Shown: positions 74 to 28,314 of the stretch, piece after piece | Layout: each line of letters starts with the position of its first letter | Position numbering within the stretch: the stretch's first letter is position 1 | Virus record (IMG/VR): IMGVR_UViG_3300030419_004185 | Coordinates: 1-37,325 of that record | Source of the DNA: a virus | Reading direction: 5' to 3' (one strand) | DNA length: 37,325 bases | Translations under genes and position numbers: made by a program | Notes under the pieces: generated by a model | Databases searched by the model: none | Seen by the model: only the letters and a program-made list of their open reading frames with translations | What the model was told of the DNA's origin: nothing

Positions 74-346
74 ATGACTGATGAATGGAAGTATATTTTA
101 AAAGCGAATAAATTAGATAGAGTGAAGGCGGCGATTAGAAGTATTGGTAGTGTAGCAGGAAAACTATTATTTATTGGTTTTCTAATTATTTCTGCTCCTA
201 TTGCTCAACCCCATTTATACCTAGCGTGGAAATACAGTAAAGAAGACAGGGAAAGAGCGATAGAAGCAGCAAAAAATGCTAGTCCAGAACAAATAAAAGA
301 AATGGAAGGTATTATTAGTCGGTATAATTTAGATAGTGAAGAGTGA
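74..346 (+). CDS. Small tagged membrane protein, unknown function
   Basis: 90 aa, not recognised. The N-terminus MTDEWKYILK is a slightly extended form of the W-x-x-I-L-K tag found on many proteins in this window. Residues about 29-55 (V-A-G-K-L-L-F-I-G-F-L-I-I-S...) form one hydrophobic, probably membrane-spanning segment, followed by a charged helical tail (K-E-D-R-E-R-A-I-E-A-A-K). The start is chosen from GGAGAG about 9 bases upstream. It nearly touches the next gene, which carries the same tag. By inference it is a virion-associated or inner-membrane-interacting protein; the coding call is firm, the role unknown. Confidence 0.75.
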   Translation: MTDEWKYILKANKLDRVKAAIRSIGSVAGKLLFIGFLIISAPIAQPHLYLAWKYSKEDRERAIEAAKNASPEQIKEMEGIISRYNLDSEE

Positions 347-351
347 TTACA

Positions 352-564
352 ATGAGTTGGAAAAATATATTAAAAAATATACCTATGTCAGAACAAGGTA
401 AATGGACAAAGGAAAATTCTATGTTAAGTTTAGAAGAAGTGGGAGATAAAGAATTAATGGCTGTTGGTTGGATTAAAAAACCATCGGGTGAAAAAGTAAC
501 TGTTTATGATAATAAGGACTTTAATGCCCCGTTTCCATTCGTAATAAAAGAAGAGTGGGATTAA
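352..564 (+). CDS. Small tagged protein, unknown function
   Basis: 70 aa from the ATG at 352. An in-frame ATG lies at 343, but the GTGATT motif just before 352 and the resulting N-terminus MSWKNILKN, which matches the recurring tag exactly, favour the later start. The rest is short and mixed (E-V-G-D-K-E-L-M-A-V-G-W-I-K-K, then V-T-V-Y-D-N-K) and suggests a small alpha/beta fold with no known motif. It sits between two other unknowns in a tight operon. Confidence 0.7.
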   Translation: MSWKNILKNIPMSEQGKWTKENSMLSLEEVGDKELMAVGWIKKPSGEKVTVYDNKDFNAPFPFVIKEEWD

Positions 565-565
565 A

Positions 566-1228
566 ATGAGTAAGAAAACTCGCAAGCATTGTCGCCTTTG
601 CCAACATAGTCAAAGAGAAGAATTAGAAGAATCAATTAATTCTTTATCAATGACTCCTGATGAATTAGATAAAAAAATGGGTTGGCCTTCTGGAGCAACA
701 AGTCGCCATATGAGAAACCATGTTAGCGAGTATGAAGAAAAATCAAATCCAAAATGTAAATTATGTACTCATCCTTCAAGAGATATTTTTGAACAAGGGC
801 TATCTTCTGGAGATTTAAAAACATCTGTTTTAGCAGACACTTTAGGTACAACTAAAGAACAATTACAATTACACATGAAAAGCCACCTTCAACCATTGGT
901 ACAGAAATCTGCCGCAGCACTTTTAGCAAAGAAAGAGATTGATGAGATTGATGTTCTTTCTAATAATATTAAAAGATTAGATGTTAAACTTGATTTGTTA
1001 TTTGAAGAAGAGAACTTAGATTCTAAACAAATTGAATCACTAACTAAACTTGCAAGAGAAGTTAGAGAGAGTCTAAAATACCTTATGGAATTTAAAGGAA
1101 AACTTGTGCATAAAAGACAGGATACTATTATTGTTGCTCAAATGCAAATTGTCAAAGAGGTTTTGGCTCAACAGCATCCGACAGTTTGGTTAGATGTTAA
1201 AAATGAAATGGAGAGGAAATTACAATGA
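566..1228 (+). CDS. Double zinc-finger DNA-binding protein, candidate small terminase subunit
   Basis: 220 aa. Residues 1-60 and 60-110 are two copies of one module: C-x2-C at the start (C-R-L-C and C-K-L-C), a helical stretch (R-E-E-L-E-E-S-I / R-D-I-F-E-Q-G-L), a helix-turn-helix-like segment, then H-M-x-x-H (R-H-M-R-N-H / L-H-M-K-S-H-L). Single copies of this C-x2-C...H-x3-H helix-turn-helix layout are common in phage proteins encoded near terminase genes. The remainder is a long helical region (about 115-220) ending in E-R-K-L-Q. A small-terminase role is an inference from module type and genome region; the large subunit is 9 kb downstream, so a regulator is also possible. Confidence 0.65.
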   Translation: MSKKTRKHCRLCQHSQREELEESINSLSMTPDELDKKMGWPSGATSRHMRNHVSEYEEKSNPKCKLCTHPSRDIFEQGLSSGDLKTSVLADTLGTTKEQLQLHMKSHLQPLVQKSAAALLAKKEIDEIDVLSNNIKRLDVKLDLLFEEENLDSKQIESLTKLAREVRESLKYLMEFKGKLVHKRQDTIIVAQMQIVKEVLAQQHPTVWLDVKNEMERKLQ

Positions 1229-1479
1229 CTTGGCAACTCATCCTTAAAAGTGCTGAAAAACAATGGCAACAAATAATAGATGCAGTTAAGGATGATAAAT
1301 TACCAATAGGAGATGAGTTTGCAAAGTATTCTCAACTTGAAAATGATAATAGAAAAATGGTTGATTATTGGTTAAAACAAGGTATGGGTGCAGATGTTTC
1401 TAAGAGAATGAAATGTATGAGAGAAATTAGAACAGAAATGTTAAAAACTAATAATTTTAGATTTTGGGCTAGTGAATAA
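1225..1479 (+). CDS. Small tagged helical protein, unknown
   Basis: 84 aa, starting with an ATGA overlap on the preceding stop, a sign of translational coupling; GAGAGGAAA lies about 6 bases upstream. The N-terminus MTWQLILKSAEKQWQQII carries the W-x-x-I-L-K tag. The body is a predicted all-helical, charged protein (V-K-D-D-K-L-P-I-G-D-E-F...; M-R-E-I-R-T-E-M). No family was recognised. Belonging to the tagged set suggests an internal or scaffold-associated virion protein (inference). Confidence 0.7.
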   Translation: MTWQLILKSAEKQWQQIIDAVKDDKLPIGDEFAKYSQLENDNRKMVDYWLKQGMGADVSKRMKCMREIRTEMLKTNNFRFWASE

Positions 1480-1492
1480 AGGAGGGGTTAAA

Positions 1493-3544
1493 ATGAATTG
1501 GATGGAAGTGTTAAAAATAGATTTAACCCTACCAAATAAAAGAAGCCAATGGTTAGAGAAATTAGAGAATGTGGCGGGTGCAGAAAGTTGGGCAAAAACT
1601 CTTGATATGTATAAAGATTCTAAAGATAAAAAATTAAGAATAAATAATTATCAAGACTTTAAAGAACAAGTTAATTCTTGGGGTTCTAATTCAAATAATG
1701 TAGTGATTTCATTAACTCCTTTAATAGATAAGAAATATGATTCTTATGATGAGCAAGAAGAAATTAAAGATACTATTGAAGAAAGTTGGAATAAAATTTA
1801 CCCAACATTAACTTCTTTTATTAGGGTTAGAGATAAGGGTAGAATTAAGGGTGCAACTAAAGGAAGGAAAGAAAGAAGTGATACTCTAAAAAGATTATTT
1901 AAAGATGCAGAAGAAAATATAAATGCGGAAAGATTTGTTGATTGGGCAGAATTAGCAAAGTATTTTAAATTAATATATCCTAGAGAAAGTAAGAATAAAA
2001 TAAACAGATTTATTAATGTGTTTTTAGGTGAAAAAACTAAAGAAACTATTTTTAATCATGCTCCTAAAGATTGGCCTTATAAACACTATTTTAAAACTAA
2101 AACATTAAAAGATGAAGAAGGGCAAGAATATGTTAAAGACTTAGAAGATTTTACTTTAACAGATATTGATATCAATAAAGCAGTAGAATATATAAAAAAA
2201 TATAGCGAGTTAAAGCGTAAAAGAAAATTAAGATATAATTTAAAACCCATGTGGATTGCCGAACTTAGCCGAGGACTTCAATTTGAAGGTAAATCCCAAA
2301 GATGGACAAATAAATTATTTATTGAGTTGTTACAAACTGATGATATAGATACTGAGGTTTATATGAAAAGATGGTTAGAAAATATTAAAAGAAAATATTC
2401 TATAAGACTTGATAAATTAAAGGAATCTTATCTAGAACAATCATGGTCTAAAAAAGAAGGCACTAATCAAAGATTTACAGGTTATGTTGATGATGCTTTT
2501 GAAGGAAGCAAAGAAGAATATTTTAGAAGTGTGGGGAGAGATTTAGAAACAAGTAAAGAAAGAGGTGGGCAATTAGAAAATTGGATAGATTGGAGGAATA
2601 AAAAAATTCAATCTATAACTGACTCCATAGGTAAGATTCCTAAAACCTTTGTTGATTGGGTTGGGGAAATAAACCGTGACTTAGATGGTTCTTCTTCTAC
2701 CGCTAATAGTAAAAAGGCCGTGAAAGAGATGGAAGAAATTTTCGGCGAAGAAGAAATGGAAGAATATAAACAAACTATGAGTCTAAAAGATTTCTTTGGT
2801 TTTACTAATAGGCAAAGTGCGCCTCACCCAATGAATGAAGAAAAGACCTTAACATTTTTTTCTCCACCTGCAACACTTAATTCAGAAGGAAATCTTAACG
2901 CTTATTCTGATATAGTTACTAAAATCTTTAATGAAGGAGTTGTTGAAGAAAGAGAAAAGTATGATAATTTGCTAGATATATATGACGATTATGAAATAAG
3001 GGCGCACGAATTGGGTCAATCAATACCTGAAGATATTTTTGGCGAACAAACTTCAACTAAAGGTATAGGTGGAGCAACTAAAAATTTCACTACTAGCACA
3101 CAAAAAACTTTAGCATATACTATTTATGATATGATTCTTTCTGATAGAACTATACAAGATACTATTATTGTTGAAACTGCTCAAAAATATAGAGGAACAG
3201 ATGTTAATTTTTTGGAGGCTCTTAGATTACTTAGAAAGATAGATGTTGTGTTTAATATAAATCAGTTTATGCCTACAGTTAAAAGATTGCAATCAAAGTT
3301 ATCTTCAGAAAACTATGATGATTTAAAACAGAAAATTAAAAACGGAGAGCAAATTTTAAAAGACGAAATTATTGATATGGAGAAAGGTATTGATTTACTA
3401 TTGGTAAAAATTAAACCTGTTGTTATAGATTTAGTAAAGAAAAAATTATTGACTATAATACAAAATCAAAGACATTACCAAGCAGAAGTTAATCATAATA
3501 TTATGGATGAATTAGTTAAAGAAGGATTTATTAGGAGGCAGTAA
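1493..3544 (+). CDS. Large tagged helical protein, unknown (683 aa)
   Basis: 683 aa from the ATG at 1493, chosen because GGAGGGG lies 6 bases upstream and the N-terminus becomes MNWMEVLKIDL, a tag variant; the frame is open further upstream only with a poorer start. The protein is charged and largely helical, with Trp/Tyr-rich stretches in the first half and F-G-E-Q-T-S-T-K-G-I-G-G around residues 518-529. The C-terminal 200 residues look like long helices (K-I-K-N-G-E-Q-I-L-K-D-E-I-I-D-M-E-K). No enzymatic motif is visible. The next gene shares an F-G-E-Q-T segment, so the two may be partners or distant relatives. Its position in the structural block suggests a virion component; the function is not known. 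Confidence 0.7.
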   Translation: MNWMEVLKIDLTLPNKRSQWLEKLENVAGAESWAKTLDMYKDSKDKKLRINNYQDFKEQVNSWGSNSNNVVISLTPLIDKKYDSYDEQEEIKDTIEESWNKIYPTLTSFIRVRDKGRIKGATKGRKERSDTLKRLFKDAEENINAERFVDWAELAKYFKLIYPRESKNKINRFINVFLGEKTKETIFNHAPKDWPYKHYFKTKTLKDEEGQEYVKDLEDFTLTDIDINKAVEYIKKYSELKRKRKLRYNLKPMWIAELSRGLQFEGKSQRWTNKLFIELLQTDDIDTEVYMKRWLENIKRKYSIRLDKLKESYLEQSWSKKEGTNQRFTGYVDDAFEGSKEEYFRSVGRDLETSKERGGQLENWIDWRNKKIQSITDSIGKIPKTFVDWVGEINRDLDGSSSTANSKKAVKEMEEIFGEEEMEEYKQTMSLKDFFGFTNRQSAPHPMNEEKTLTFFSPPATLNSEGNLNAYSDIVTKIFNEGVVEEREKYDNLLDIYDDYEIRAHELGQSIPEDIFGEQTSTKGIGGATKNFTTSTQKTLAYTIYDMILSDRTIQDTIIVETAQKYRGTDVNFLEALRLLRKIDVVFNINQFMPTVKRLQSKLSSENYDDLKQKIKNGEQILKDEIIDMEKGIDLLLVKIKPVVIDLVKKKLLTIIQNQRHYQAEVNHNIMDELVKEGFIRRQ

Positions 3545-6054: not shown

Positions 6055-6294
6055 ATGTCGTGGGAAAAAATTTTAAAAATTTCAGATGAGCACCTTAAAA
6101 ATGCTGTAAAGGAGGTTTTTTCTGAGGCCAAAAATAATGTTGATGCTGAAAGGGTTTTGAATAGATTATTTGGTAAAGATAGGGTTAAACCTTTTATTTC
6201 TGACTATTATAAAGATATAAGAGAACAAAGAAGTCATGGTAAAGTAATTGAAGGCGGGGCATCTAAAGGTTTTACGCATCAAAGGGGGAGATAA
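6055..6294 (+). CDS. Small tagged protein, unknown
   Basis: 79 aa from the ATG at 6055, which follows AAGGAGTGAG by 4-5 bases; the earlier in-frame start at 6046 falls inside that ribosome site. The N-terminus MSWEKILKISDE is a canonical tag. The body is helical (H-L-K-N-A-V-K-E-V-F-S-E-A-K) and ends in a basic, Gly-rich tail (G-G-A-S-K-G-F-T-H-Q-R-G-R). The last codons contain GGGGGAG, which serves as the ribosome site of the next gene. Function unknown. Confidence 0.7.
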   Translation: MSWEKILKISDEHLKNAVKEVFSEAKNNVDAERVLNRLFGKDRVKPFISDYYKDIREQRSHGKVIEGGASKGFTHQRGR

Positions 6295-6295: not shown

Positions 6296-7342
6296 ATGTC
6301 ATGGAATAAAATATTAAAAAATGATAAATTTGATGAAAAGGCAAGTTATGGCATATCTTTAGATGCTATAAAAGATTTAGATTGGATAAATCATATGAGA
6401 AAAATACTTAGTGTTAGAGGGTTTGAAAATTTAACCAATGCCGCAATTGAAGATGCGGCTTTAGCATTTATGGTTTTATTTGAAGAATTGTTAGAAGAAA
6501 CAGGATATGAACAAAAGGTTAAAGAAAGTGAAGAACGGTTTTCTGAAGCAGCAAGAAGTTTTCATGGTGAAAAAGATATTAGCAAACCAACAGGAGGCAA
6601 AGTTGGAAGAGGAATGTATCCTAAAAGGCATGAACAAACATTAAAGGCTATTAATAGAATAATTCAATCTATTTTACAAGATTTAATTATTATGATTCAT
6701 AAGGCTTGGGATAATCAACTATTAAGTGAAGAAGATGAAGAAATGTTAGAAGAAGCCTTAGAAGATAAAAGATTAGATGATTCTGAAATTGAAGAAATAT
6801 TTAATTTGAAAAATTTTAAGGAAAATTGTGTAAGATTTACAAATAAGGCTATTAAAAGAATAGGTGAAAGTTTAAATTTAGATAATGATATGCCATTAAA
6901 TAGTCAAAAGATTGCTACAAAAATTATAGAAAATAATAACTTTAAAAGTTGGGTTGCTCATTGTTATACTTTAAGTAGTATGAAAATTCAACTTGGTATA
7001 ACTAGAGAATTAGGTGATGAAAGAGAACAGGTGTTTGGAGATATTCTTACTGAAGAAGAAAAAAGATATTTAGAATCAATTGATGAAGGTGGTAAAGAAA
7101 TTAATATTGGCCCATTTAGTCTAGGTAGAACTGGAGCACAAATTGACCCAAAAACAGGGATTCCTCAAAAAACTGCTAGAGGAGAGGATATTATTTATCC
7201 TCAAGGAAGAGAATTTCCTGAAGGTTGGCAAAAAGAAATGAAAATGGATGACGGTGAATTTAAGAAAGCGTGGGATATTATTAAAAAAGGCCGTTGTAAA
7301 GGTTGTAGGCCAACAAAAGGAATTTTAAATGAGTATTGGTGA
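6296..7342 (+). CDS. Tagged helical protein, unknown (348 aa)
   Basis: 348 aa. The start at 6296 is preferred over the longer frame from 6248 because GGGGGAG lies 5 bases upstream and the product then begins with the tag MSWNKILKNDKF. The protein is helical and acidic (E-E-D-E-E-M-L-E-E-A-L-E-D around 145-160), with a short Gly/Pro-rich linker near residue 100 (S-K-P-T-G-G-K-V-G-R-G-M) and a C-terminal G-R-C-K-G-C-R-P knuckle-like C-x2-C. Its end overlaps the likely ribosome site of the GNAT gene. No family recognised; virion-internal role inferred from the tag. Confidence 0.7.
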   Translation: MSWNKILKNDKFDEKASYGISLDAIKDLDWINHMRKILSVRGFENLTNAAIEDAALAFMVLFEELLEETGYEQKVKESEERFSEAARSFHGEKDISKPTGGKVGRGMYPKRHEQTLKAINRIIQSILQDLIIMIHKAWDNQLLSEEDEEMLEEALEDKRLDDSEIEEIFNLKNFKENCVRFTNKAIKRIGESLNLDNDMPLNSQKIATKIIENNNFKSWVAHCYTLSSMKIQLGITRELGDEREQVFGDILTEEEKRYLESIDEGGKEINIGPFSLGRTGAQIDPKTGIPQKTARGEDIIYPQGREFPEGWQKEMKMDDGEFKKAWDIIKKGRCKGCRPTKGILNEYW

Positions 7343-7347
7343 TTTAC

Positions 7348-7923
7348 TTGAGATACCAAGAGATGCCATATTCTGCCCTTTCTAAAGAGTGGGAGTTAGC
7401 GTATAATGAGCCTATTCCTAAAAGAAGAAAAGAACTACAAAGTTGGTATCCTGTTTCTATATATTTGGCGGCTATTGCTCAAAAAGGAGATGTAGATAAT
7501 AAGGGTGAGATTGTTGATGAAGAAAAGCCTGTTGGTTATGTTGCTTATCATCAAGGTGATGGTGTAGTTTTTCTTGGTGATTCTAGAACACATGATGATT
7601 GGGCAAAAATGGGTATTTATAGTGAATTGATAAAAAGAAGAGATAAATTAGTAAGTGGCCCAAAAATAGCAGGACTTAGACCAAAAAGAACACCACTAAA
7701 GGAATATATTAATTTTCAGCAAAGAATGGGTTATACAATAAATCCTAGTGAAGAACAAATTGTTGAACTTTTTGGTGAAAGTTACCCGAAAAAGGTTTTT
7801 GATAAATTTAGAGAAGAATATGAAAATACTGGTAATTCAGCATGGGGAATTAGAAAGTTCCAAGATTCTTTCTCTAAGGCATGGTTAATGTTACTAAAAG
7901 ACTTTGAACCAGCAGGGGAATAA
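7348..7923 (+). CDS. GNAT-family acetyltransferase-like protein
   Basis: 191 aa from a TTG at 7348, preceded by GGTGATT 3-4 bases upstream; an ATG at 7360 is an alternative. The central part resembles the GNAT fold: V-G-Y-V-A-Y-H-Q-G-D-G-V-V-F-L-G (beta 4), then D-D-W-A-K-M-G-I-Y-S-E-L-I-K-R-R, a degenerate acetyl-CoA-binding motif A (usual pattern R/Q-x-x-G-x-G/A), then F-Q-Q-R-M-G-Y-T as the typical late 'GF/GY' strand. It is similar in layout to the second GNAT at 13304. The degraded motif A leaves activity uncertain. The substrate cannot be inferred from sequence. Confidence 0.65.
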   Translation: MRYQEMPYSALSKEWELAYNEPIPKRRKELQSWYPVSIYLAAIAQKGDVDNKGEIVDEEKPVGYVAYHQGDGVVFLGDSRTHDDWAKMGIYSELIKRRDKLVSGPKIAGLRPKRTPLKEYINFQQRMGYTINPSEEQIVELFGESYPKKVFDKFREEYENTGNSAWGIRKFQDSFSKAWLMLLKDFEPAGE

Positions 7924-7924: not shown

Positions 7925-8551
7925 ATGTTTAATGAGATATGGAAAAAAAATATACTTAAGCCTTCTTCTAAGGTAGGAATATTCAAACCTAAAATGGGAT
8001 TTGAATTAGAAGAAGATGATGATAATTGTAATAGGCAATTAAAAGAATATGCTAATAAAATTAAGAATGTGCGTTTGCCCTTTGAAGATAGTTGGGATAG
8101 TAAAGAAATGGAATATTATAGAGATTTTATGTTTCGCAAAATATTTGATGAAAAAGATGAAAAATCAATATATTTTTCATCGGCAGTTGGAAACCACCGT
8201 GAATTAGCAGTTCAATCTAAAACCCATATATATAATCCTGTACCTGAAAGCGTTGCTTGTGAGACATTAGAAATATTAAAAAAACAGAATATAGGAAGTG
8301 TATTTAAACATAAAGAAATAGATGGGTATGATATTTGGGTTTTTAGTGAAGATAGATACGACCAAAGCATTTTACAAACAATGGTGAAACATAATGATTC
8401 TATACTTATTCAGTTAATTTTAGAGTGTGCAAATACTATATCTATGTTTAAGGCGGGTAAAATGGTTTTTAGTTTTGAAAGGAATGATTTAAATCCGGCT
8501 AGAAATTTTAAGGATGCATCTAGGTATAATTTTAATATTGATTGGAGATAA
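7925..8551 (+). CDS. Tandem paralogue 1, tagged protein with Cys-acidic motif
   Basis: 208 aa from the ATG at 7925. First of four tandem paralogues. It begins MFNEIWKKNILKPSSKVGIF, in which W-K-K-N-I-L-K is the tag with one extra residue, followed by F-K-P-K-M-G-F-E-L-E-E-D-D-D-N-C. Further blocks shared with the next two copies are K-E-Y-A-N-K-I, Y-N-P-V-P-E-S-V-A-C-E-T-L-E-I-L and the C-terminal I-D-W-R. The variable middle suggests diversification. The upstream gene ends 2 bases before this start, with AGCAGGGG upstream. Function unknown; the duplicated, tagged design suggests internal virion proteins or host-directed factors (inference). Confidence 0.7.
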   Translation: MFNEIWKKNILKPSSKVGIFKPKMGFELEEDDDNCNRQLKEYANKIKNVRLPFEDSWDSKEMEYYRDFMFRKIFDEKDEKSIYFSSAVGNHRELAVQSKTHIYNPVPESVACETLEILKKQNIGSVFKHKEIDGYDIWVFSEDRYDQSILQTMVKHNDSILIQLILECANTISMFKAGKMVFSFERNDLNPARNFKDASRYNFNIDWR

Positions 8552-8556
8552 TTAAT

Positions 8557-9162
8557 ATGTTTAATAAGATATGGAAAGAACAAATTGTTCAGCCTACTTC
8601 TAAAGTGGGTGCATTCAAACCTAAACAGGGTTTTGAGTTAGAGGAAGATGAAGATGACGACTGTAATAAAAAGTTACAAGAGTATGCTAACAAATTAAGA
8701 AATATGTCTTTTAAAACTAAAGGAAGTCCTCAATTTAATAGTTATTGGGAAAAGCAAAATGAATCAGGAATAGAAATAGATGAAACTATGGAAATGAAAA
8801 TTAAGGGGTATGAAGAAATAGATTATGGAAACGAAAATACTTATCTACCTTATGGTTGGGAAAGGATTAAGTTTAGATATAATCCTGTTCCTGAAGAAAT
8901 TGCTTGTTTAGCATTAAAATATCTTAAGGAATTAGGGAAAGATTATAGAAAACCCTATATTCTACCATTGTCAAAAGATTATGAATTTCATGCCGATTGG
9001 TCGGAATATGAATTAGGGATGCATGGAGTGAAAACAATGAAAATGTATATAAGACCAACCAACAGTAGAAAATGGGATGAATATTATGTGATATTAAGCC
9101 ACTACATTCACACCGGAGGAACAGTTGGTAATTATGATGAAATAGATATTGATTGGAGATGA
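8557..9162 (+). CDS. Tandem paralogue 2 of the four-copy family
   Basis: 201 aa from the ATG at 8557. N-terminus MFNKIWKEQIVQPTSKVGAF aligns without gaps to its neighbours, followed by F-K-P-K-Q-G-F-E-L-E-E-D-E-D-D-D-C-N-K-K-L-Q-E. It also shares Y-N-P-V-P-E-E-I-A-C-L-A-L-K-Y-L and the terminal I-D-I-D-W-R. The tag is the weaker form W-K-E-Q-I-V-Q. Its ribosome site is the GGAGA inside the last two sense codons (TGG AGA) of the previous copy, so the junction was duplicated with the gene. Function unknown. Confidence 0.7.
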   Translation: MFNKIWKEQIVQPTSKVGAFKPKQGFELEEDEDDDCNKKLQEYANKLRNMSFKTKGSPQFNSYWEKQNESGIEIDETMEMKIKGYEEIDYGNENTYLPYGWERIKFRYNPVPEEIACLALKYLKELGKDYRKPYILPLSKDYEFHADWSEYELGMHGVKTMKMYIRPTNSRKWDEYYVILSHYIHTGGTVGNYDEIDIDWR

Positions 9163-9166
9163 TTTA

Positions 9167-9775
9167 ATGTTTGATGAGATATGGAAAGAACAAATAGTTA
9201 AACCAGTAGGTAAAGTAGGTATATTCAAACCTAAACAGGGTTTTGATTTAGAAGAAGAGGATGATGGTGATTGCAATAAAAAGTTACAAGAGTATGCAAA
9301 TAAAATTAAAAATACCCCATTACCATTAAAAGAATTATGGAATGATAAAGACTTTGAAAATTACAAACCTCTTTTTAATGAAGATTCAAGAATTTTTTCT
9401 TGGGCAAAATCAGAACGCTTTGCGCTCTTTAAGAAGGAGGATGATGATAGTATAAATTTTCATGAATATATTGAGCAAAGAAAAATGTATAAATACAATC
9501 CTATTCCAGAAAATGTTGCTTGTAAATCCCTAGAAATGTTAAAAAACTATGATTTACTACCTACCATTTCTCCCCCTATGGTTGAAGATGAAATGAATGG
9601 TTATAAGATTAGAATTGATGGCTCTACTAATAAGAGAGTAACTTGGTTAGAATTAACGGTATTGTATAAAAAAAGAAGTGTAATTCGCTTAGGGTTAGAA
9701 AGGGACATAACCTTATATGATATCTATTATTATAAAATTTTTGATAAATATGCTTTAGATGTTGATTGGAGATAA
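9167..9775 (+). CDS. Tandem paralogue 3 of the four-copy family
   Basis: 202 aa from the ATG at 9167. It opens MFDEIWKEQIVKPVGKVGIF, with F-K-P-K-Q-G-F-D-L-E-E-E-D-D-G-D-C-N-K-K after it, the block Y-N-P-I-P-E-N-V-A-C-K-S-L-E-M-L in the middle, and L-D-V-D-W-R at the end. It is closest to copy 2 in the first 50 residues. The middle region (about 50-110) differs from both neighbours. The start again follows GGAGAT embedded in the W-R codons of the preceding copy. No known domain was recognised. Confidence 0.7.
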   Translation: MFDEIWKEQIVKPVGKVGIFKPKQGFDLEEEDDGDCNKKLQEYANKIKNTPLPLKELWNDKDFENYKPLFNEDSRIFSWAKSERFALFKKEDDDSINFHEYIEQRKMYKYNPIPENVACKSLEMLKNYDLLPTISPPMVEDEMNGYKIRIDGSTNKRVTWLELTVLYKKRSVIRLGLERDITLYDIYYYKIFDKYALDVDWR

Positions 9776-9779
9776 ACCC

Positions 9780-10046
9780 ATGTTTAATAAAGTGTGGAAA
9801 AAACAAATTGTTCAACCTACCGCAAAAGTAGGTATATTTAAGCCAAAACAAGGATTTGATTTAGAAGATAATGAAGATAATAAATGCTGTGAAGAGGCAA
9901 GAAAAAAATTTCTGGAAACGGGGGCGTGGCATGAATGGCGTGAATGGCCTTGTGAAGAATTATATGATTTTTTAAATCGTTTTCGGCATCGGCCTCTTGA
10001 AAAAGTCATAATTGAAGAATGGGATAGGTGTGAAAATGGAAATTAA
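9780..10046 (+). CDS. Tandem paralogue 4, short or truncated copy
   Basis: 88 aa from the ATG at 9780. The first 35 residues (MFNKVWKKQIVQPTAKVGIF, then F-K-P-K-Q-G-F-D-L-E-D) match the other three copies, but the conserved Cys block is altered to N-K-C-C-E-E-A-R and the Y-N-P-x-P block and D-W-R end are absent. Instead it carries a Trp/His-rich stretch (W-H-E-W-R-E-W-P-C-E-E-L). It overlaps the terminase start by 11 bases. It may be a truncated copy, or the conserved N-terminal module fused to a different payload, which would fit a sorting-signal model. Confidence 0.65.
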   Translation: MFNKVWKKQIVQPTAKVGIFKPKQGFDLEDNEDNKCCEEARKKFLETGAWHEWREWPCEELYDFLNRFRHRPLEKVIIEEWDRCENGN

Positions 10047-13291: not shown

Positions 13292-13303
13292 ATGGAGGCT
13301 AAT

Positions 13304-15369: not shown

Positions 15370-15840
15370 ATGAGTTGGTGGAATATTATTAAACAAGGTC
15401 AAACTTTAGATGTTGGTCTTTCTAATCCTACATCTTTAAAAGAAGGAGAAGAATATTCAAAACGATTAAATTCCCCATCATTTAGACATTTACGACAAAG
15501 GGTTCCTGAAACTGATTTTAGATATAAAGAAGGACAACAAACTCTAAATCAAAATACACCAACTCAAACTGTTCAAGATGCTGCAACTACAACTGCTCTT
15601 GAATCTCAAGCCCAAGAATTAGAACAACAACAATTAAGTGATGATGCTGCTTCTGATGTAGGTGAAGTAATTAGTCGTATTAAACAACAGTTGGCTAGAC
15701 CACCACAAGGAGCAAAAGGAGTAAGAGCACTTCCCATTGTAGAAAAACTAATAACCGCTACTCAAACCCCAACAGATTTTAGAGATTCAGTAAAAGAAGT
15801 TGTTAGAGAATTAAAATTATTAGAGCCTACGGCAGTATAA
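15370..15840 (+). CDS. Tagged Gln-rich protein, unknown
   Basis: 156 aa from the ATG at 15370, after GGTTGGTTAAA; an upstream frame exists but ignores this start. N-terminus MSWWNIIKQGQ carries the tag as W-W-N-I-I-K. The middle is low-complexity and Gln/Thr/Ala-rich (T-P-T-Q-T-V-Q-D-A-A-T-T; E-L-E-Q-Q-Q-L), the C-terminal part helical (V-K-E-V-V-R-E-L-K-L-L-E). Directly downstream of the portal, so a head-internal or scaffold helper is plausible. No family was recognised. Confidence 0.7.
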   Translation: MSWWNIIKQGQTLDVGLSNPTSLKEGEEYSKRLNSPSFRHLRQRVPETDFRYKEGQQTLNQNTPTQTVQDAATTTALESQAQELEQQQLSDDAASDVGEVISRIKQQLARPPQGAKGVRALPIVEKLITATQTPTDFRDSVKEVVRELKLLEPTAV

Positions 15841-18838: not shown

Positions 18839-19171
18839 ATGGATTGGTATGACATAATTAAAGAAGATAGTCCTGTTCTTAGGACTTTATCTCAAAAGGA
18901 AAGAAAACACTTAAAGAAAACTTTAGAGGCCGCAGAACCATCTGAATATTTCGGTCAAGACTTTACTAAAATGGGAGAATTAATAGAATTAATGCAAGAA
19001 TTAGATTTAGTAAAGGGAGATAAAAAAATGGCTAAGAAGATGAAATCTTTATCTGAAAATAATGTTGATGTTGTGGCTAGTGCTGCAAAATTAAGAAAAG
19101 AATATGAAAATACATATAGGGAGTTAAGAGAAATAATATACCCAAAAAGTAGGGGGCTTAGAAAAAAATGA
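18839..19171 (+). CDS. Small tagged helical protein, unknown
   Basis: 110 aa; the ATG follows the previous stop directly, with GGAGTGGTGAAT overlapping that gene's end as its ribosome site. N-terminus MDWYDIIKEDS is the tag as W-Y-D-I-I-K. The rest is helical and charged (L-S-Q-K-E-R-K-H-L-K-K-T-L-E; M-A-K-K-M-K-S-L-S-E-N) with a basic end (P-K-S-R-G-L-R-K-K). No family recognised. The stop overlaps the next ATG (ATGA). Confidence 0.7.
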   Translation: MDWYDIIKEDSPVLRTLSQKERKHLKKTLEAAEPSEYFGQDFTKMGELIELMQELDLVKGDKKMAKKMKSLSENNVDVVASAAKLRKEYENTYRELREIIYPKSRGLRKK

Positions 19172-19413
19172 CAGAAGAAAATGAAATTAAAAATGAGACA
19201 CTAGAAATTTTAAAGATTTTAGTGGAGAAAATTGAGAACTTAGAAAAGACCGTGTATAATGACGATAATGTTTTAATGAAAGCAGGTTTTGTCACTACTA
19301 CTAGTCCAACACCTAAAATGTCGGTTAATGGAGGGAATATTCCTGATGCTGACATGATTTCAAAAATGAGTTGGGAAGATATTAATAAATACATGGATAA
19401 AATGGGGGCTTAA
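19168..19413 (+). CDS. Small coiled-coil protein with C-terminal M-S-W motif
   Basis: 81 aa, ATGA-coupled to the preceding gene. Residues 1-33 form a leucine-heptad helix (E-T-L-E-I-L-K-I-L-V-E-K-I-E-N-L). A Ser/Thr/Pro-rich linker follows, and the C-terminus is I-S-K-M-S-W-E-D-I-N-K-Y-M-D-K-M. This last segment aligns with the C-terminus of the protease/scaffold protein (I-A-K-M-D-W-N-E-L-H-L-A-V) and resembles the N-terminal tag of other proteins. A scaffold-like or adaptor role is inferred. Confidence 0.65.
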   Translation: MTEENEIKNETLEILKILVEKIENLEKTVYNDDNVLMKAGFVTTTSPTPKMSVNGGNIPDADMISKMSWEDINKYMDKMGA

Positions 19414-20018: not shown

Positions 20019-22547
20019 ATGCCAATAAGCGGTCTTGCTTTTGAAAAGAAGAAAAATCCTTTATCTAGGCGCATTATGCGTCTTTTTGAAGATACTAGGG
20101 TAGCCTATCTTTCTGCTAAACAAGACCCTAAAAGTTATGGTAAAGATTGGGAAAAAATGGTTAATAGATTAAGAAATATGTATGATGACCTTGATGACCT
20201 TGCTAGAGATTTGAAGGAAGTAATACATCAAAAAGATTTAGAATCAAGTGATGCGGTAAATATTGAATCTGCTACTGCTTCTGCTATTTTTAATGGTATA
20301 AAAGAATTAAGATATAATTCAGAAAATGTTCAAGACCCATTTAGTAAAAAATATGGAGAAAAGGTATTAGAAACTTTAATGGAAAATAAAGAAATTCTTG
20401 CTGTTTTTATTCATTGGGCTTTAAGAAAGGATAAAAAACCGCTTTCAGATGATTTTTGGGAAAAGTACCTGCCAAAAGGTGACCAAATAACAGGGGGTCA
20501 TATCGGACTTGACCTACCTAGTAAGGACATACCCTCCTATATTATTGAACATTATGGTAATGATAAAAATTCGCAAGGGGTTAAAGGCAAAGTTAAGGGT
20601 GCTTTGACCTTATTAAAGGATATATATGTTAATTATTTCTCCGAAGCCGAGTGGGAGCAGTTGCTCGGATTAGAGATTTCTAAATCAGATGAAAAAGAGG
20701 AAAAGGCTAATATTGATTTTATAACTCCTAATAAACCAATGTATAGAATATTTGATATAGATGATATTGAGGAATTAAGGGGCTTTACTGGAGAATGGGT
20801 TGTTCAAGAAAAATATGATGGTATGAGAATACAGATTCATAAGATAGATAATAAAGTTAAAATCTATTCATATAATGGTAAGGATATTACAGATAAATGT
20901 CCTGAGCAAGTTAAAATAATGAAGGCTAAAAAGTTTGGCGAGTGTATTCTTGATGCTGAATTATTACTCTTTGATGGGGATAAACCATTACATAGGGCAA
21001 AGGTTGTTGCTAGAATATTTAAGGATAAAAAATCAGATTTTGAATTAAAGGCTCATGTGTTTGATATACTTAGACATAATGAAAAAGATATGACAGATGA
21101 ACCTCTTAGAGAAAGAATACAAACTCTTTTCCAAAATTATTCAATTCATTCTGAAGAGTTGTTGCAGTTTCCATCTAAGAAAGACACAAGAATTGCAGAT
21201 AATTTGAAAGATGTAGAAAATTATGCTAAAGAAATTATGAAAATACCAACAGCAGAAGGTGTTGTTCTTAAAGATATTGAATCAACTTATATTAAAGGTG
21301 CAAGAAAAAATCCTAAATGGATTAAGTGGAAAAAATTTGTTGATTTAGATTTAATTGTTTTGGATAAGAAAACTACTAAGGATGGTCTTAATTCTTATAC
21401 TCTTGGTTCTGGGCCTTTAAAATTAGAAGAGGCTAGAAAATTAGAAAGTAAAAAAATTGATGATAGATATTATCTAAATGTAGGTAAAGCCCTAAATACT
21501 AAAGTTGATGTTGATATAGGAAAAATAGTTAGAGTTAAAGTGGATGAAGTAAAGAAAAATAGTAAAGGTCAATATAGAGTATATTCCGCTAAAGTTATTG
21601 AAATTCCTGAAGTAACTGAGCCAGATAAATTAGTTACTCTTGAGTTTTTATCTTCTAATGGTACTATGGATAATAAATATAAAGCAAAAGCATTTAAGAA
21701 ATCTATAGTAATTACAGATGATATTCATGGAACAGCAGAAGTTATTATTAAGACTGATTTTGACGGCTTTACTATTTACGGATTTAAAGATAATAATTTA
21801 ATGGCTAAAAATGCTTTAGTGGATTTAGATTTCTTAAAAGAAGAAATTGGGGAATTATTAAAAGCAAAGAAAGGGAAACTTAGAGTTTCTATTAAAAACT
21901 TTATACAGAATACTCCTGATAATGTAGCCAATATTAATGAAATATTAGAGTTTGTTAAAGAAAATCATAACGATTTATTTCAAGAAGTTTTTAATGGTGA
22001 TAGTAAAAAATTAAAAAATCATTTAATGAATGAAGCAAATGATATTTCTTATTCCGGTAATAATGAATTTTCAGGTATGGAAAATGTACTTGAAAAAGAA
22101 GATAATTATAAAACTCCTGAACAATATCGTCATGGTAAATTTAAATTATATTTAAGAGAAGATGATAACTTATCTTTAACTTTTCTTTTAGATGATGTTA
22201 AATTTGGTTGGGAAATTAAAATTGAAAGTATTGATGATGTATTTGACTTATTTGGTAAAGCAGGGAAATATCCTGCACAGGTACAAAAAACAGTTTCAAG
22301 GGAAAAATTAGTTGATGAAGGAGATGTTAAGTTAGGTGTCCAAAGACACGGTTATCATGAATATTTCTTAAATGGGGATAAATTTGAAACTAAGTTGCAT
22401 TTAAGAGTTGTTCCTTTAGATGAAAAGAAACAATGGATTGCATTTTCAAGTTTTACTAAAGAACCCGTTGAACCTAAATCAGATGATGGAATATGGGATA
22501 TAAGGGAAGATAAGAATAAAGATTTGTCCTTTACTTCATTAGATTAG
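20019..22547 (+). CDS. ATP-dependent DNA ligase core in a large multidomain protein
   Basis: 842 aa; GGTGAAT lies 2-3 bases before the ATG. Joins DNA nicks through a lysine-AMP intermediate if active. Nucleotidyltransferase motifs are clear: motif I E-K-Y-D-G-M-R with K265, motif III D-A-E-L-L-L-F-D, motif IV E-G-V-V-L-K-D, motif V P-K-W-I-K-W-K-K; an OB-like part follows (I-G-K-I-V-R-V-K-V-D-E-V). Residues 1-240 are helical and may replace the usual DNA-binding domain. About 545-842 are an additional, partly beta-rich region (R-H-G-Y-H-E-Y-F-L, then L-H-L-R-V-V) that only faintly recalls the LigD phosphoesterase domain. Location among head genes rather than replication genes is odd. Confidence 0.85.
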   Translation: MPISGLAFEKKKNPLSRRIMRLFEDTRVAYLSAKQDPKSYGKDWEKMVNRLRNMYDDLDDLARDLKEVIHQKDLESSDAVNIESATASAIFNGIKELRYNSENVQDPFSKKYGEKVLETLMENKEILAVFIHWALRKDKKPLSDDFWEKYLPKGDQITGGHIGLDLPSKDIPSYIIEHYGNDKNSQGVKGKVKGALTLLKDIYVNYFSEAEWEQLLGLEISKSDEKEEKANIDFITPNKPMYRIFDIDDIEELRGFTGEWVVQEKYDGMRIQIHKIDNKVKIYSYNGKDITDKCPEQVKIMKAKKFGECILDAELLLFDGDKPLHRAKVVARIFKDKKSDFELKAHVFDILRHNEKDMTDEPLRERIQTLFQNYSIHSEELLQFPSKKDTRIADNLKDVENYAKEIMKIPTAEGVVLKDIESTYIKGARKNPKWIKWKKFVDLDLIVLDKKTTKDGLNSYTLGSGPLKLEEARKLESKKIDDRYYLNVGKALNTKVDVDIGKIVRVKVDEVKKNSKGQYRVYSAKVIEIPEVTEPDKLVTLEFLSSNGTMDNKYKAKAFKKSIVITDDIHGTAEVIIKTDFDGFTIYGFKDNNLMAKNALVDLDFLKEEIGELLKAKKGKLRVSIKNFIQNTPDNVANINEILEFVKENHNDLFQEVFNGDSKKLKNHLMNEANDISYSGNNEFSGMENVLEKEDNYKTPEQYRHGKFKLYLREDDNLSLTFLLDDVKFGWEIKIESIDDVFDLFGKAGKYPAQVQKTVSREKLVDEGDVKLGVQRHGYHEYFLNGDKFETKLHLRVVPLDEKKQWIAFSSFTKEPVEPKSDDGIWDIREDKNKDLSFTSLD

Positions 22548-22561: not shown

Positions 22562-22584
22562 GATAGAATGGGATGGTGGGAATA

Positions 22585-24027
22585 GTGAGTGAAGCAACCT
22601 CAATAAGAACAGTAAATTCAGGTATTAATCACGATTTTAAAATATTAAAAAGTCATGATTTACATATCGGTGGTTATGCTTCAATTGAAATAGTAGATAA
22701 ACAAAATGATTTAATTACTTTAGAGGCATTAAATGAAGCAGTTAAAAAATTTATGAAAGAACCTAAATATAGAAATGTAATGACAAATCATTCAAATGTT
22801 CAAGTTGGAGAAGTAGTAAAAGAATATAGAGATAATTCAGGAAGGCTTTGGAAAACTGATGTTGATGATGTAGGATTTTTTGTAGTAATTAAATTAAGAA
22901 GTGATATAGAAAAAGCAAAAGAAGTTTCAAGAGAAATTAGAAAAGGTAGTCTTAGGTCTTTTAGTATTGGTGGTCAAGCATTAGAAAAAAGAAAAAGAAA
23001 TAATGAAGATTTAGGCGATTATAACGAAATTTCAAAATTAGAATTACATGAAATAACAATTTGTGAAAAAGGAATTAACCCAGAAGCAAAATTTGATATA
23101 TTAAAAATGGAGAAAAACAATATGAGCGAAATTAGCGAAGCAATAAATGAATTAGGTGTTTTATTAAAAAGCATTAAAGAAAATAAAATTGAAAAATTAA
23201 GTCCCGAAGCAGAAAAGAGATTAAGAGCAGCAGGAGAATTATCTGGGCCATTAGATGAAGTTGAAGGTCAATTTCCCGAAGACCCTGACGCAACCCTTCC
23301 ACAAAAACAAAGAGATTTATTGCCAGAAGAATTAGAATTAGAAGCAGGGCAATTAGCAAGAGAAAAAAGTATAGAAGAAGAATTTCCAGAAGAAGAAATG
23401 GGAATTGGAGAAGATGAAAAATTAGATTCCAGTAATAATACAGGTGAAAAAATGGCAGAAGAATATTTAGATGCAGAAAATGACGAAGCAGATGATTTAG
23501 AATTGTCTGACTTTGAGAACACAGAAAAGAGTAAGCCGGATTTGGCAACAGGTCAAGTTGAAGCAGGTGAAGCAGGTGAAGTAATACATGATGGAACCGC
23601 TAAACCAAAGCATGACCAAATTAAAGTTGTTAAAAATGTTTGGAATGGGGATACTAAAGGATTAGACTTATCTCCTGAAAATCTTGAAAAAGCATATGCT
23701 GAATTTAAGGCAGAACAAATGGAAAAACTTGCTTATGAGGACATTAAGCGTTCTTTTGAACAGAGATTTAACCGAGAAGTTGCTGTAAAAGAAGATGCAA
23801 TTGCAAAGTCAGAATATGACCCAAGAATTGAGGTTAATGAATTAAAGAAACAATTCGGTGAATTATTAGATACTATCAAGAATGATGCTGAAATGACTTT
23901 TACAAAGCAGCAAGAGGCAGCAGTAGCAAATCAAGTAAATGTTCCAACATATGATGAAATTGCTAAAATGGATTGGAATGAATTACATTTAGCAGTACAA
24001 GAATTGGAGGAAAAAAGCGGTCTTTGA
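22585..24027 (+). CDS. Prohead protease fused to scaffold region (XkdF-like)
   Basis: 480 aa from GTG 22585 (an ATG at 22573 would add 4 residues; GGTGGG lies between the two). The protease part, about 10-180, resembles XkdF-type phage serine proteases: G-G-Y-A-S-I-E-I-V-D-K-Q-N-D-L-I, candidate His in V-M-T-N-H-S-N-V-Q-V-G, candidate Ser in L-R-S-F-S-I-G-G-Q, then L-H-E-I-T-I-C-E-K-G. Residues about 190-440 are acidic and helical, as expected for a fused scaffold. The C-terminus K-M-D-W-N-E-L-H-L-A-V-Q-E-L matches a small neighbour's end. It would shape the prohead and cleave internal proteins. The major capsid gene follows directly. Confidence 0.85.
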   Translation: MSEATSIRTVNSGINHDFKILKSHDLHIGGYASIEIVDKQNDLITLEALNEAVKKFMKEPKYRNVMTNHSNVQVGEVVKEYRDNSGRLWKTDVDDVGFFVVIKLRSDIEKAKEVSREIRKGSLRSFSIGGQALEKRKRNNEDLGDYNEISKLELHEITICEKGINPEAKFDILKMEKNNMSEISEAINELGVLLKSIKENKIEKLSPEAEKRLRAAGELSGPLDEVEGQFPEDPDATLPQKQRDLLPEELELEAGQLAREKSIEEEFPEEEMGIGEDEKLDSSNNTGEKMAEEYLDAENDEADDLELSDFENTEKSKPDLATGQVEAGEAGEVIHDGTAKPKHDQIKVVKNVWNGDTKGLDLSPENLEKAYAEFKAEQMEKLAYEDIKRSFEQRFNREVAVKEDAIAKSEYDPRIEVNELKKQFGELLDTIKNDAEMTFTKQQEAAVANQVNVPTYDEIAKMDWNELHLAVQELEEKSGL

Positions 24028-24063: not shown

Positions 24064-25416
24064 ATGACAAAATATATTAACACAATTAAGGATTTAGAAG
24101 CGGCTACATACGGTCGCTACGGAAATGATGCAATTTTGAAGGGTGCTGGTGCTGTTGCAAGTATTAACTCTGGTTTCCTTCATGACGGAGCAATGAGTTT
24201 AGCAGGTACAGCCGCAGGGCCAAATCTATCTTCACTATATAACATGGTTTATGGGCAGAAAGTTTGGTCAATGATTAATCAAGAAATTAACCCATTAAGT
24301 GTTTTACCTAAAAGACCATATACAAGTAGTGGTTGGAGAGTTATGACAAAAAGGCCAATTGGCGGTTCAAGTGCTGCTTTTGGTTTAGGTACAACTGCTT
24401 ATTCAGCAGGTTCAGCGTTAGATGCTCCAAATGCTGATGAAATTGGTGGTGTGGATGAAAATCACGCATTGGCTTCAACAGGATTAAATGCAATTGCGCC
24501 AGAATACACTACACTTTATATGTCACCAAAGACTGTTGCACATCAGTTTGATTATTCAGAATTAGCAGCAGAAATGGCTAAAATTGATGATGGTGTTGGC
24601 GACCTTCGTTCTCTAATTAGAGAAGATATGGGTAAATTACACGCAGAAGTACAATCAGTAATGGCTGTAATGCCTCTTGAGAATTATGATACAAGTGGTT
24701 ATGATTCAATTGAGCGTAATTATACTTCATTAATGAAGATTGTAGCATCAAGTCAAGAAATGGAGGCTATGGTTGATGCTTCTATGTTAAATGCTTCTTC
24801 AAGCAGTACAGGTGGATTAATCACACAATTAAGCCAAATTTACGGTAATGATAGTCGTGATTTAGTTGCTAATGCATATAATGAGTCTTTTATGGATTCA
24901 GTAATTGATTATGGGTCAGGATATGCCGCAGGTAATGTTAGAGCATTAACTACTACTTTACTAAATAACATGATTCAAAACCTACGAACCAATGGTGGTA
25001 CTCCAAAGGTTATTTTAACTGGTTACGATACAATTCAGACAATTGCTGATTTACTACAAAGCCAAGAAAGATTCCTTGAGAGAAAAGAAGTTATTCCAAC
25101 CCATCAAGGTGTAAAAGGTGTAAAAGGCCGTGAAGTTGGTTTTAGAGTAGCAACATACTTTGATATACCTTTAATCCCTTGTAAGGATATGCCATCAACA
25201 GGACAAGGAACCACAAAAGTTAGTGATTTACTGTTCTTAGATACAGACCATTTATGGCTTGCAGTTATGAAACCAACTCAATACTTTGAAGATGGTATTA
25301 ATCATGGAAACCCATTCGGTGTCGGTAGTCTTGGAAACAGGGGTCTATTCCGAACAATGGGAGAATTGGGCTGTACCTTCTTTAAGGGTCAAGGTAAAAT
25401 TACTAATATACAGTAA
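24064..25416 (+). CDS. Major capsid protein (HK97-type)
   Basis: 450 aa, GGTGATT 6 bases before the ATG. Called from its position right after the protease/scaffold, typical length, and capsid-like composition: Y-N-M-V-Y-G-Q-K-V-W-S-M-I-N (N-arm/E-loop region), G-W-R-V-M-T-K-R-P, L-R-S-L-I-R-E-D-M-G-K-L-H-A-E-V (long spine-helix region), P-K-V-I-L-T-G-Y-D-T-I-Q and V-A-T-Y-F-D-I-P-L-I-P in the A-domain. Codon use is more GC-rich and uniform than in neighbours, as expected for a highly expressed gene. Hairpins flank it on both sides. No fold signature is absolute, so the fold assignment rests on context. Confidence 0.85.
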   Translation: MTKYINTIKDLEAATYGRYGNDAILKGAGAVASINSGFLHDGAMSLAGTAAGPNLSSLYNMVYGQKVWSMINQEINPLSVLPKRPYTSSGWRVMTKRPIGGSSAAFGLGTTAYSAGSALDAPNADEIGGVDENHALASTGLNAIAPEYTTLYMSPKTVAHQFDYSELAAEMAKIDDGVGDLRSLIREDMGKLHAEVQSVMAVMPLENYDTSGYDSIERNYTSLMKIVASSQEMEAMVDASMLNASSSSTGGLITQLSQIYGNDSRDLVANAYNESFMDSVIDYGSGYAAGNVRALTTTLLNNMIQNLRTNGGTPKVILTGYDTIQTIADLLQSQERFLERKEVIPTHQGVKGVKGREVGFRVATYFDIPLIPCKDMPSTGQGTTKVSDLLFLDTDHLWLAVMKPTQYFEDGINHGNPFGVGSLGNRGLFRTMGELGCTFFKGQGKITNIQ

Positions 25417-27047: not shown

Positions 27048-27055
27048 GTGATTAA

Positions 27056-27274
27056 TTGGGTTGGTTTCCTAATGTTTTAAGTGCAGATGATAGCACTATT
27101 GCTTATGATATGACTAGAGCGCATTCAGCCGATATTTGGTTTTTAAAACTTAGGGCTTGGACATGGGGAATAACTGCTACTGTTGCCGCATTATGTATTG
27201 GTAATATAGCAGGGGTTTTTGGAATTAATATTTTTGGAATGTTATTTGAAATAATATCAGAAATTGTTTGGTAA
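27056..27274 (+). CDS. Small membrane protein next to the GTPase
   Basis: 72 aa from a TTG at 27056, supported by GGTGATTAA directly upstream. Residues 1-33 are polar/amphipathic (W-F-P-N-V-L-S-A-D-D-S); 33-72 are hydrophobic and could form one long or two short membrane helices (W-G-I-T-A-T-V-A-A-L-C-I-G-N; G-M-L-F-E-I-I-S-E-I). The coding call rests on the ribosome site and tight spacing. It likely works with the membrane protein before it and the GTPase after it. Confidence 0.65.
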   Translation: MGWFPNVLSADDSTIAYDMTRAHSADIWFLKLRAWTWGITATVAALCIGNIAGVFGINIFGMLFEIISEIVW

Positions 27275-27294
27275 ATTTAAATTGGTGTTTTCAT

Positions 27295-27963
27295 GTGTCT
27301 TTTCTTGCAGGTTTCGCAGTATTCTTCGCAGAAGTAGGTTTAGCAGTTTATAATAGGGTTCATGCTCATCAATTTGGAATATATGGTGCAGGAAAAGTTG
27401 GAAAAACAACATTACATAGACAATTAAGAACCAGAGGAGAAGTACCAGATATTAAAAGAAGAACAGTCGGAATTGAAAAACCAACTAGAAAAGTAGTCAA
27501 AATAGAGGGAGATTTAAAAACATTGAAAGCAGCAGATGTTGGAGGACAAAGCCAATATTGGAATTTATGGAAACAAGATATTAGAAAAAGAAAAGTTGAA
27601 TATATTATTTTTATGGTGGATGATAGACACTTACAGGAAAAATATAATCTTGATAATCAATTAGCATGGACATATTTAATAGATTTAATTACTGATACTC
27701 ATTGGAGAGATGGTAAAAAAAATAAGAAAAAGAAAATGTCAGATTATCCAAAAGCAATAGGAATATGGGCAAATAAGTTTGATATATGGGGTAAAAAATA
27801 TGAATATGATACAATTGAAAGTCATCCTATATTTGAACCGTTTAGGCTTGGTATTCAACAATTAAATGAAATAGGTATTCCGGTGCATAAATATATTGTA
27901 AGTGCAAAATCAGATTCAGAAATGGTATATCGTGGTGTAATGACAATGATTAAGGATTATTAG
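27295..27963 (+). CDS. Membrane-anchored Arf/G-alpha-like small GTPase
   Basis: 222 aa from GTG 27295 (GGTG 7 bases upstream; a TTG at 27268 would add 9 residues). Residues 2-20 are a hydrophobic anchor (F-L-A-G-F-A-V-F-F-A-E-V-G-L). All five G motifs are present: P-loop G31-A-G-K-V-G-K-T38, switch Thr T57, D81-V-G-G-Q85 of the Arf/G-alpha type, N160-K-F-D163, and S203-A-K205. The D-V-G-G-Q form separates it from Ras/Rab types (D-T-A-G-Q). Q85, the usual catalytic glutamine, is kept. Such GTPases act as nucleotide-controlled switches on membranes. Preceded by two membrane-protein genes and followed by a tagged gene. A role in a tailed virus structural module is unexpected and not known to me. 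Confidence 0.9.
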   Translation: MSFLAGFAVFFAEVGLAVYNRVHAHQFGIYGAGKVGKTTLHRQLRTRGEVPDIKRRTVGIEKPTRKVVKIEGDLKTLKAADVGGQSQYWNLWKQDIRKRKVEYIIFMVDDRHLQEKYNLDNQLAWTYLIDLITDTHWRDGKKNKKKKMSDYPKAIGIWANKFDIWGKKYEYDTIESHPIFEPFRLGIQQLNEIGIPVHKYIVSAKSDSEMVYRGVMTMIKDY

Positions 27964-27972
27964 GTGGTTATT

Positions 27973-28314
27973 ATGGATTGGAAAAAAATATTAAAACAAA
28001 CGCCAGCAATTCCACCAAAACTTGTGACAGATGTAGAAAGAGTTCAAAATGAAATAGGAACCCTTGAATCACAGATTGATAATCTTAATAATCCTCAATT
28101 AGAGAAATTATACGACCAACTAATAAACACAATGAATAGTATAGAAAATATAGTAATTGGGGAAAATAGTGATTTTAATAAGCCTAGTGATTTTAATAAG
28201 CCTAGTGATTTTAACAAACCCCAAACAGGTACAACACAAACTTCCCCTAATTGGGAGGGTTGGGAACAAGTTCAAATTGCTGATGATGGTAGGGTTATAG
28301 GTGGTTCTTCATGA
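27973..28314 (+). CDS. Tagged protein with three six-residue repeats
   Basis: 113 aa from the ATG at 27973 (AGGTGG 7 bases upstream). N-terminus MDWKKILKQTP is a canonical tag, followed by a coiled-coil helix (V-E-R-V-Q-N-E-I-G-T-L-E-S-Q-I), three perfect S-D-F-N-K-P repeats (about 66-83), and a short Trp-containing end (N-W-E-G-W-E-Q-V-Q). Its stop overlaps the next ATG. Being the only tagged gene beside the GTPase, it could link the GTPase cluster to the capsid interior; this is speculation. Confidence 0.7.
   Translation: MDWKKILKQTPAIPPKLVTDVERVQNEIGTLESQIDNLNNPQLEKLYDQLINTMNSIENIVIGENSDFNKPSDFNKPSDFNKPQTGTTQTSPNWEGWEQVQIADDGRVIGGSS
28168..28221 (+). repeat. Three 18-bp in-frame tandem repeats
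   Basis: Copies at 28168-28185, 28186-28203 and 28204-28221. The first two are identical at the DNA level (agtgattttaataagcct); the third has synonymous changes. They encode S-D-F-N-K-P three times and extend a flexible linker in the tagged protein. Confidence 0.8.

Follow-up and report, generated by a model that had tools for sequence, protein, structure and literature searches.

Why do proteins that otherwise look unrelated begin with the same few residues? The question is raised by a viral genome fragment, positions 1 to 37,325 of the IMG/VR record IMGVR_UViG_3300030419_004185, which we analysed over its whole length of 37.3 kb and which we call the window. At least nine of its predicted proteins share a short N-terminal peptide, here called the tag, which the initial annotation had proposed to be a capsid-targeting signal. 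Our analysis supports that proposal at the level of sequence: the tag is restricted to one strand of related genomes, it matches the tail of the predicted scaffold, and it moves among protein bodies and termini. We consider it probable that the tag serves as a portable docking peptide, by which proteins gain entry to the magrovirus prohead through mimicry of the scaffold tail, and that this cargo then enters the host with the DNA.

The window encodes a terminase, a portal protein, an S78 prohead protease, an SU10-type major capsid protein (MCP), a minor tail protein and a DNA ligase. The MCP of the window shares 60-77% identity with those of dozens of IMG/VR contigs and 25% with the MCP of Haloarcula virus HCTV-1. 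The near-complete relatives among these contigs measure 86-96 kb and have PolB and MCP on opposite strands, and both their size and the strands of PolB and MCP match the published layout of the magroviruses of Poseidoniales (Apasviridae; PMC12999244). Judged by its morphogenesis module and by its MCP, which has many close marine relatives, the window is a magrovirus fragment, placed at the level of the order, Magrovirales.

A shared peptide on morphogenesis genes

All nine N-terminal tags named in the initial annotation are present at their ATG start codons, on the plus strand. The proteins that carry them have 90 amino acids (aa; 74-346, MTDEWKYILK), 70 aa counted from the ATG (352-564, MSWKNILK), 84 aa (1225-1479, MTWQLILK), 683 aa (1493-3544, MNWMEVLK; without a Pfam or PHROG match), 79 aa (6055-6294, MSWEKILK), 348 aa (6296-7342, MSWNKILK), 156 aa (15370-15840, MSWWNIIK) and 113 aa (27973-28314, MDWKKILK); the ninth is a helical head protein, p18839 (18839-19171), which is conserved across 89 loci. 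The pattern W..[ILVM][ILVMA][KRQ] has 14 matches in window open reading frames (ORFs) of at least 60 aa, nine of which are these N-termini, and 2000 shuffles of the N-termini gave a mean of 0.13 and a maximum of 3. Since relaxed forms such as WKETLK, WFDTLK and WKNELK are also present, nine is a lower bound.

Four tandem paralogues on the plus strand (7925-8551, MFNEIWK; 8557-9162, MFNKIWK; 9167-9775, MFDEIWK; 9780-10046, MFNKVWK) carry a variant of the tag, as had been noted; in place of the form I-W-K-x-x-I-[LV] given for it, M-F-x-x-[IV]-W-K, with F in place of W and W in place of L, describes it better. Arrays of tagged paralogues that look alike, with a tag, a variable linker, an acidic EEDDDC-like stretch and a divergent body, occur in the window (7925-10046) and in four other contigs (G013, G015, G024 and G031). 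Those outside the window carry the W form of the tag; tag form and copy number differ among viruses, and the link between arrays of different viruses was made by eye.

Among the related contigs, the consensus is M-[STN]-W-x-[DNE]-[IV]-[LI]-K, eight residues that read roughly MSWEDILK; the docking peptide proposed below is written slightly more widely as M-[STND]-W-x-[DEN]-[IV]-[LI]-K. The 773 unique tagged proteins have bodies that fall into 410 clusters, and cluster representatives (two sets, of 143 and 136) align only at M1, W3 and K8 of the tag, which bears out the earlier impression that the tagged bodies are unrelated. A shuffled control across relatives gave the same picture as in the window: 116 of the 1040 genes of eight near-complete relatives match near the N-terminus, against a shuffled mean of 2.0 and a maximum of 8, and the same genes yield a single match in mid-protein windows of 16 residues and six in C-terminal windows. 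Where the start of a tagged gene was ambiguous, the start adjoining the tag was chosen, which slightly favours the N-terminal count and makes the strand and mid-protein controls the safer ones. One N-terminus (L119:5883-6134, in G009) bears a tandem tag, MSWQDILKIDITMNWQDVIK.

According to the initial annotation, an equal frequency of the motif in non-structural genes would refute the idea of a capsid-targeting signal, and the counts do not refute it. With strand roles assigned from the positions of MCP and PolB, the tag occurs in 115 of 535 genes on the morphogenesis strand and in 1 of 505 on the replication strand of the eight relatives (Fisher p 5e-35). On the morphogenesis strand of the relatives, tagged genes crowd the region that precedes the terminase (75 of 220 genes); the tag also occurs between the portal and protease genes and around a gene for a small GTPase, and is found in none of the 47 genes that follow the tail marker. 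As read from these gene positions, the tag is confined to the morphogenesis gene set.

Selection on the tag is visible at the protein level. The 591 unique DNA sequences that encode it use many Leu, Ile and Val codons at the aliphatic positions and both Lys codons, and this synonymous variation implies that selection acts on the protein. The N-terminal W of p18839 is conserved in all 38 aligned homologues, while the residues that follow are variable, and the tag stays first even when an EF-hand (L025 and L037) or a Cys-rich insert (L064) separates it from the body. In the AlphaFold model, the p18839 tag forms a short helix of its own, predicted with low confidence, in front of a helical body, and comparison of the fold with viral models revealed no fold relative.

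The scaffold tail and the movement of the motif

The initial annotation held that the tag is present only at N-termini, which proved wrong: C-terminal copies end the ORFs starting at 19168 (ISKMSWEDINKYMDKMGA), 22573 (IAKMDWNELHLAVQELEEKSGL) and 7336 (KAWLMLLKDFEPAGE), all on the plus strand. The second of these encodes the S78 prohead protease fused to a scaffold region (22573-24027; Pfam PF04586, E 3e-10), and the first encodes p19168, a small head protein that is probably a coiled coil (19168-19413). Both conserve the motif at the C-terminus in the form KM[SDE]W.[DE][ILV][HN] (78 distinct protease-scaffold and 65 distinct p19168 sequences), and M-[SDET]-W-x-[DE]-[ILV] stands about 13-20 residues from the end in the protease-scaffold C-termini listed and in nearly all those of p19168. 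A search of nine genomes with M[SDETN]W.[DE][ILV] gave 57 occurrences, 42 near N-termini, 14 C-terminal and 1 internal, and the 14 C-terminal ones belong exclusively to the protease-scaffold and p19168. At the level of the motif, then, the tag matches the conserved C-terminal tail of the predicted scaffold. A protein encoded directly upstream of the MCP gene in a Methanofastidiosa virus (L269:11851-14250, vir519_00022) ends in GKMTTEEIERQFGGE, which resembles the magrovirus scaffold tail minus its W.

The acetyltransferases illustrate how the motif moves. The window encodes an untagged GNAT acetyltransferase (13292-13729, plus strand; Pfam PF00583, E 4e-6) and the acetyltransferase-like protein that ends in KAWLMLLKDFEPAGE (7336-7923; weak GNAT match, E 0.05). 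Among the relatives, those in L161, L196, L207 and L201 are N-tagged, those in L167 and L140 are C-tagged, and the one in L177 lacks the tag, as does the window protein at 13292. The two C-tagged proteins of L167 and L140 are called GNAT by Pfam, while the N-tagged relatives were linked through tblastn and alignment, since Pfam alone does not call them GNAT. A tag that is N-terminal, C-terminal or absent among relatives is therefore a portable linear motif.

Other kinds of body are also tagged. Both ends of a CCA-adding tRNA nucleotidyltransferase, which has PDB relatives at E 1.8e-21 and a Pfam match, carry the tag. Just upstream on its contig lies a tagged 2H-type protein with a match to the cyclic phosphodiesterase domain of tRNA ligase (E 2e-6, which passes the Pfam cut-off), and the two (L145:6432-8100, minus strand) look like a packaged tRNA-repair pair. 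Further tagged bodies include a pentapeptide-repeat protein (Pfam), EF-hand proteins (weak matches), several HExxH families called by motif only, for which Pfam gives no supporting match, and a Cys-rich protein. In Actinomycetia phage DSL-LC01, the gene for a relative of this Cys-rich protein immediately precedes that of the capsid maturation protease. NCBIfam matches to the 136 tagged representatives are mostly of the coiled-coil type.

A swap between tagged and untagged forms also stands for a domain that we call YHGT, which is untagged at the C-terminus of a window protein and occurs as a stand-alone tagged protein at L155:12095-12478 and L231:2317-2700. The window protein (11453-13291, 612 aa) also contains a LAGLIDADG-like stretch (AYTAAFIDSDGYITV) without Pfam support. 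The suggestion that the YHGT domain is an ADP-ribosyltransferase, like T4 Alt, is unsupported: it has no Pfam match, an AlphaFold pLDDT of 46, no fold match and no phage relative.

Readings of the tag

Because the tag copies the scaffold tail, it most likely loads proteins into the new capsid. Like the C-termini of herpesvirus scaffolds, the scaffold tail would bind the inner face of the capsid shell, with the MCP as the docking partner of tail and tag alike. By imitating the tail, tagged proteins would co-assemble in the prohead core, stay in the head once the scaffold has been removed and the DNA packaged, and pass along with the DNA into the host, where tagged enzymes (tRNA CCA-adding, 2H-type phosphodiesterase, acetyltransferases and metallopeptidase-like proteins) may act early in infection. 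We lean slightly, too, towards a broader reading in which the scaffold-tail mimic is a general cargo-loading code in a dominant group of ocean archaeal viruses. Each virus would pack for injection some 6 to 30 proteins that change quickly between viruses, among them enzymes of the tRNA-repair type, acetyltransferases and metallopeptidase-like proteins.

Several points weigh against loading into the capsid. Magroviruses are uncultured, and the location of tagged proteins in the virion, their partner binding and their injection are what we infer from sequence. The scaffold tail has [HN] at the position of the tag's L and usually no K, so that the two motifs are similar and not identical, and the binding partner could be the scaffold or the portal instead of the capsid protein. 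Among the many tagged bodies of no known function, some may be assembly factors and not cargo. No common processing site was noticed in the tagged proteins, for which no systematic search was made, and some 6 to 30 tagged proteins per virus would need room in one head.

In one alternative, the tag would direct proteins to a different assembly hub, such as the portal vertex, the terminase complex or the scaffold core instead of the shell, and its carriers would serve in assembly or form part of the vertex and not be interior cargo. The clustering of tagged genes ahead of the terminase gene and near the portal gene would suit such a role, as would p18839, which is tagged, conserved and helical, and T4 internal proteins are known to bind the core and not the shell (PMC9026906). 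However, hundreds of poorly conserved bodies, enzymes included, look like cargo, and the motif copies the tail of the protease-scaffold, whose herpesvirus analogue contacts the capsid protein; we regard such a hub as unlikely. Docking outside the virion to a late-expressed hub of virus or host, for instance a membrane assembly site, seems to us decidedly improbable. T4 proheads leave the membrane during maturation, which shows that membrane assembly sites exist (PMC9026906), and a W with aliphatic residues could contact lipid. But the hydrophobic part of the tag (W0, I3 and L4) spans one helical turn, which is short for a membrane anchor and disfavours reading the tag as a membrane helix; no hydrophobic position is conserved beyond position 5, and the copies at C-termini and within proteins, along with the scaffold tail, argue for a pocket in a protein.

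Hardly any weight falls on the possibility that the tag is a signal in DNA or mRNA, such as an enhancer of translation starts, or a relic of the recent duplication of one ancestral tagged gene. A purine-rich stretch resembling a ribosome-binding site does precede many tags, and some arrays, such as that at 7925-10046, are true paralogues. Freely varying synonymous codons already contradict this explanation and, together with the C-terminal copies, lead us to reject a translation signal; the tag also stays terminal when inserts follow it, and the 410 body clusters include unrelated known folds.

If loading into the prohead is correct, a one-line sequence rule predicts which uncharacterized proteins travel in the particle and enter the host first, and it would provide both a readable list of the internal proteome of abundant uncultured archaeal viruses and a portable loading signal. 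Packaged enzymes (tRNA CCA-adding enzyme, phosphodiesterase and acetyltransferase) would then be candidate agents of counter-defence, or of early control over the host, in archaea.

How widely is the tag distributed? The motif was not found in HCTV-1 or Methanofastidiosa vir519, which are sister archaeal tailed viruses. Among 84,980 prokaryote species genomes, exact MSWEDILK has 19 single, scattered bacterial matches against about 6 expected by a rough estimate, with none in archaea and none repeated in one contig, which is near chance level. Most IMG/VR contigs with exact MSWEDILK encode core genes of magroviruses, except for G035 and for fragments that yielded no terminase; one of these fragments, G031, nevertheless has a tag series. 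G035 itself, an 84-kb contig with one match, has neither a magrovirus core gene nor a tag series, and we attribute its match to chance. From the absence in the sister viruses, the near-chance count in prokaryotes and the core genes, it follows that the tag is, so far, a magrovirus trait. No earlier description was found in the magrovirus literature examined, which did not extend to Zhou 2023 or to Philosof 2017 and Prabhu 2025 in full text.

Neighbouring genes and known systems of cargo loading

The terminase, portal and MCP (24064-25416, plus strand; Pfam PF17236, E 1.7e-9) of the window, its shell and packaging proteins, are untagged. A Cys/His-rich protein encoded upstream of the terminase (566-1228) is kept in 54 loci and is, by position only, a candidate small terminase subunit. 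The head module also includes an untagged ATP-dependent DNA ligase (20019-22547, 842 aa), which is possibly packaged; relatives have a second ligase on the replication strand. The small GTPase (27268-27963; Pfam Ras, E 1.2e-5, of Ras/Arf type), with a DVGGQ motif and a hydrophobic N-terminus, is encoded between head and tail genes, is kept in 75 fetched loci and has no match among PDB sequences. Such a GTPase is unusual in a tailed virus. One related contig of 184,733 bases (G036, L132) carries two terminase genes about 90 kb apart, 73% and 70% identical to that of the window, and is likely to represent two joined virus genomes or a double-length assembly.

Internal proteins of phage T4 carry an N-terminal capsid targeting peptide (PMC9026906). 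Like this capsid targeting sequence (CTS), which is found on IPI-III and Alt, the magrovirus tag is a short terminal peptide on unrelated bodies in a virus with a prohead protease, its carriers lie in head-assembly and not in replication genes, and the cargo varies between relatives. Both termini of Alt undergo processing (PMC9026906), and one magrovirus enzyme carries a tag at each of its ends. The analogy is functional only, as the magrovirus motif is its own. Unlike the CTS, the tag also occurs at C-termini, marks hundreds of families and matches the tail of the protease-scaffold, and the magrovirus MCP belongs to an archaeal-virus lineage, SU10/HCTV-1-like. DarB of phage P1 is a large internal protein that is likewise sent to the capsid by N-terminal residues, the first 30 being a sufficient packaging signal (PMC9024508). 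The N-termini of the P1 Dar proteins share no consensus (PMC9024508), whereas the magrovirus consensus is strict across hundreds of proteins.

In herpesviruses, one C-terminus is common to the protease-scaffold and the shorter scaffold; it attaches to the capsid protein, and the protease cleaves it (PMC12474303). Magroviruses resemble this UL26/UL26.5 arrangement in that a protease-scaffold and a second scaffold-like protein end in a common conserved motif; unlike the short herpesvirus scaffold, p19168 is a separate gene and not an in-frame product of the protease gene. We know of no copying of the scaffold tail onto cargo in herpesviruses. Encapsulins, cellular compartments with one or a few cargoes, use a short terminal cargo-loading peptide to put enzymes inside an HK97-type shell. 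Terminal-peptide loading would be common to both systems, but magroviruses also have a scaffold, a protease, a portal and a terminase. The aspects that are new to us, relative to the T4 and P1 signals, are breadth and the scaffold-tail match: those signals cover a handful of proteins, the magrovirus tag marks 410 body clusters, and, if loading into the prohead is correct, its resemblance to the scaffold suggests that cargo tags can arise through copying of a scaffold tail.

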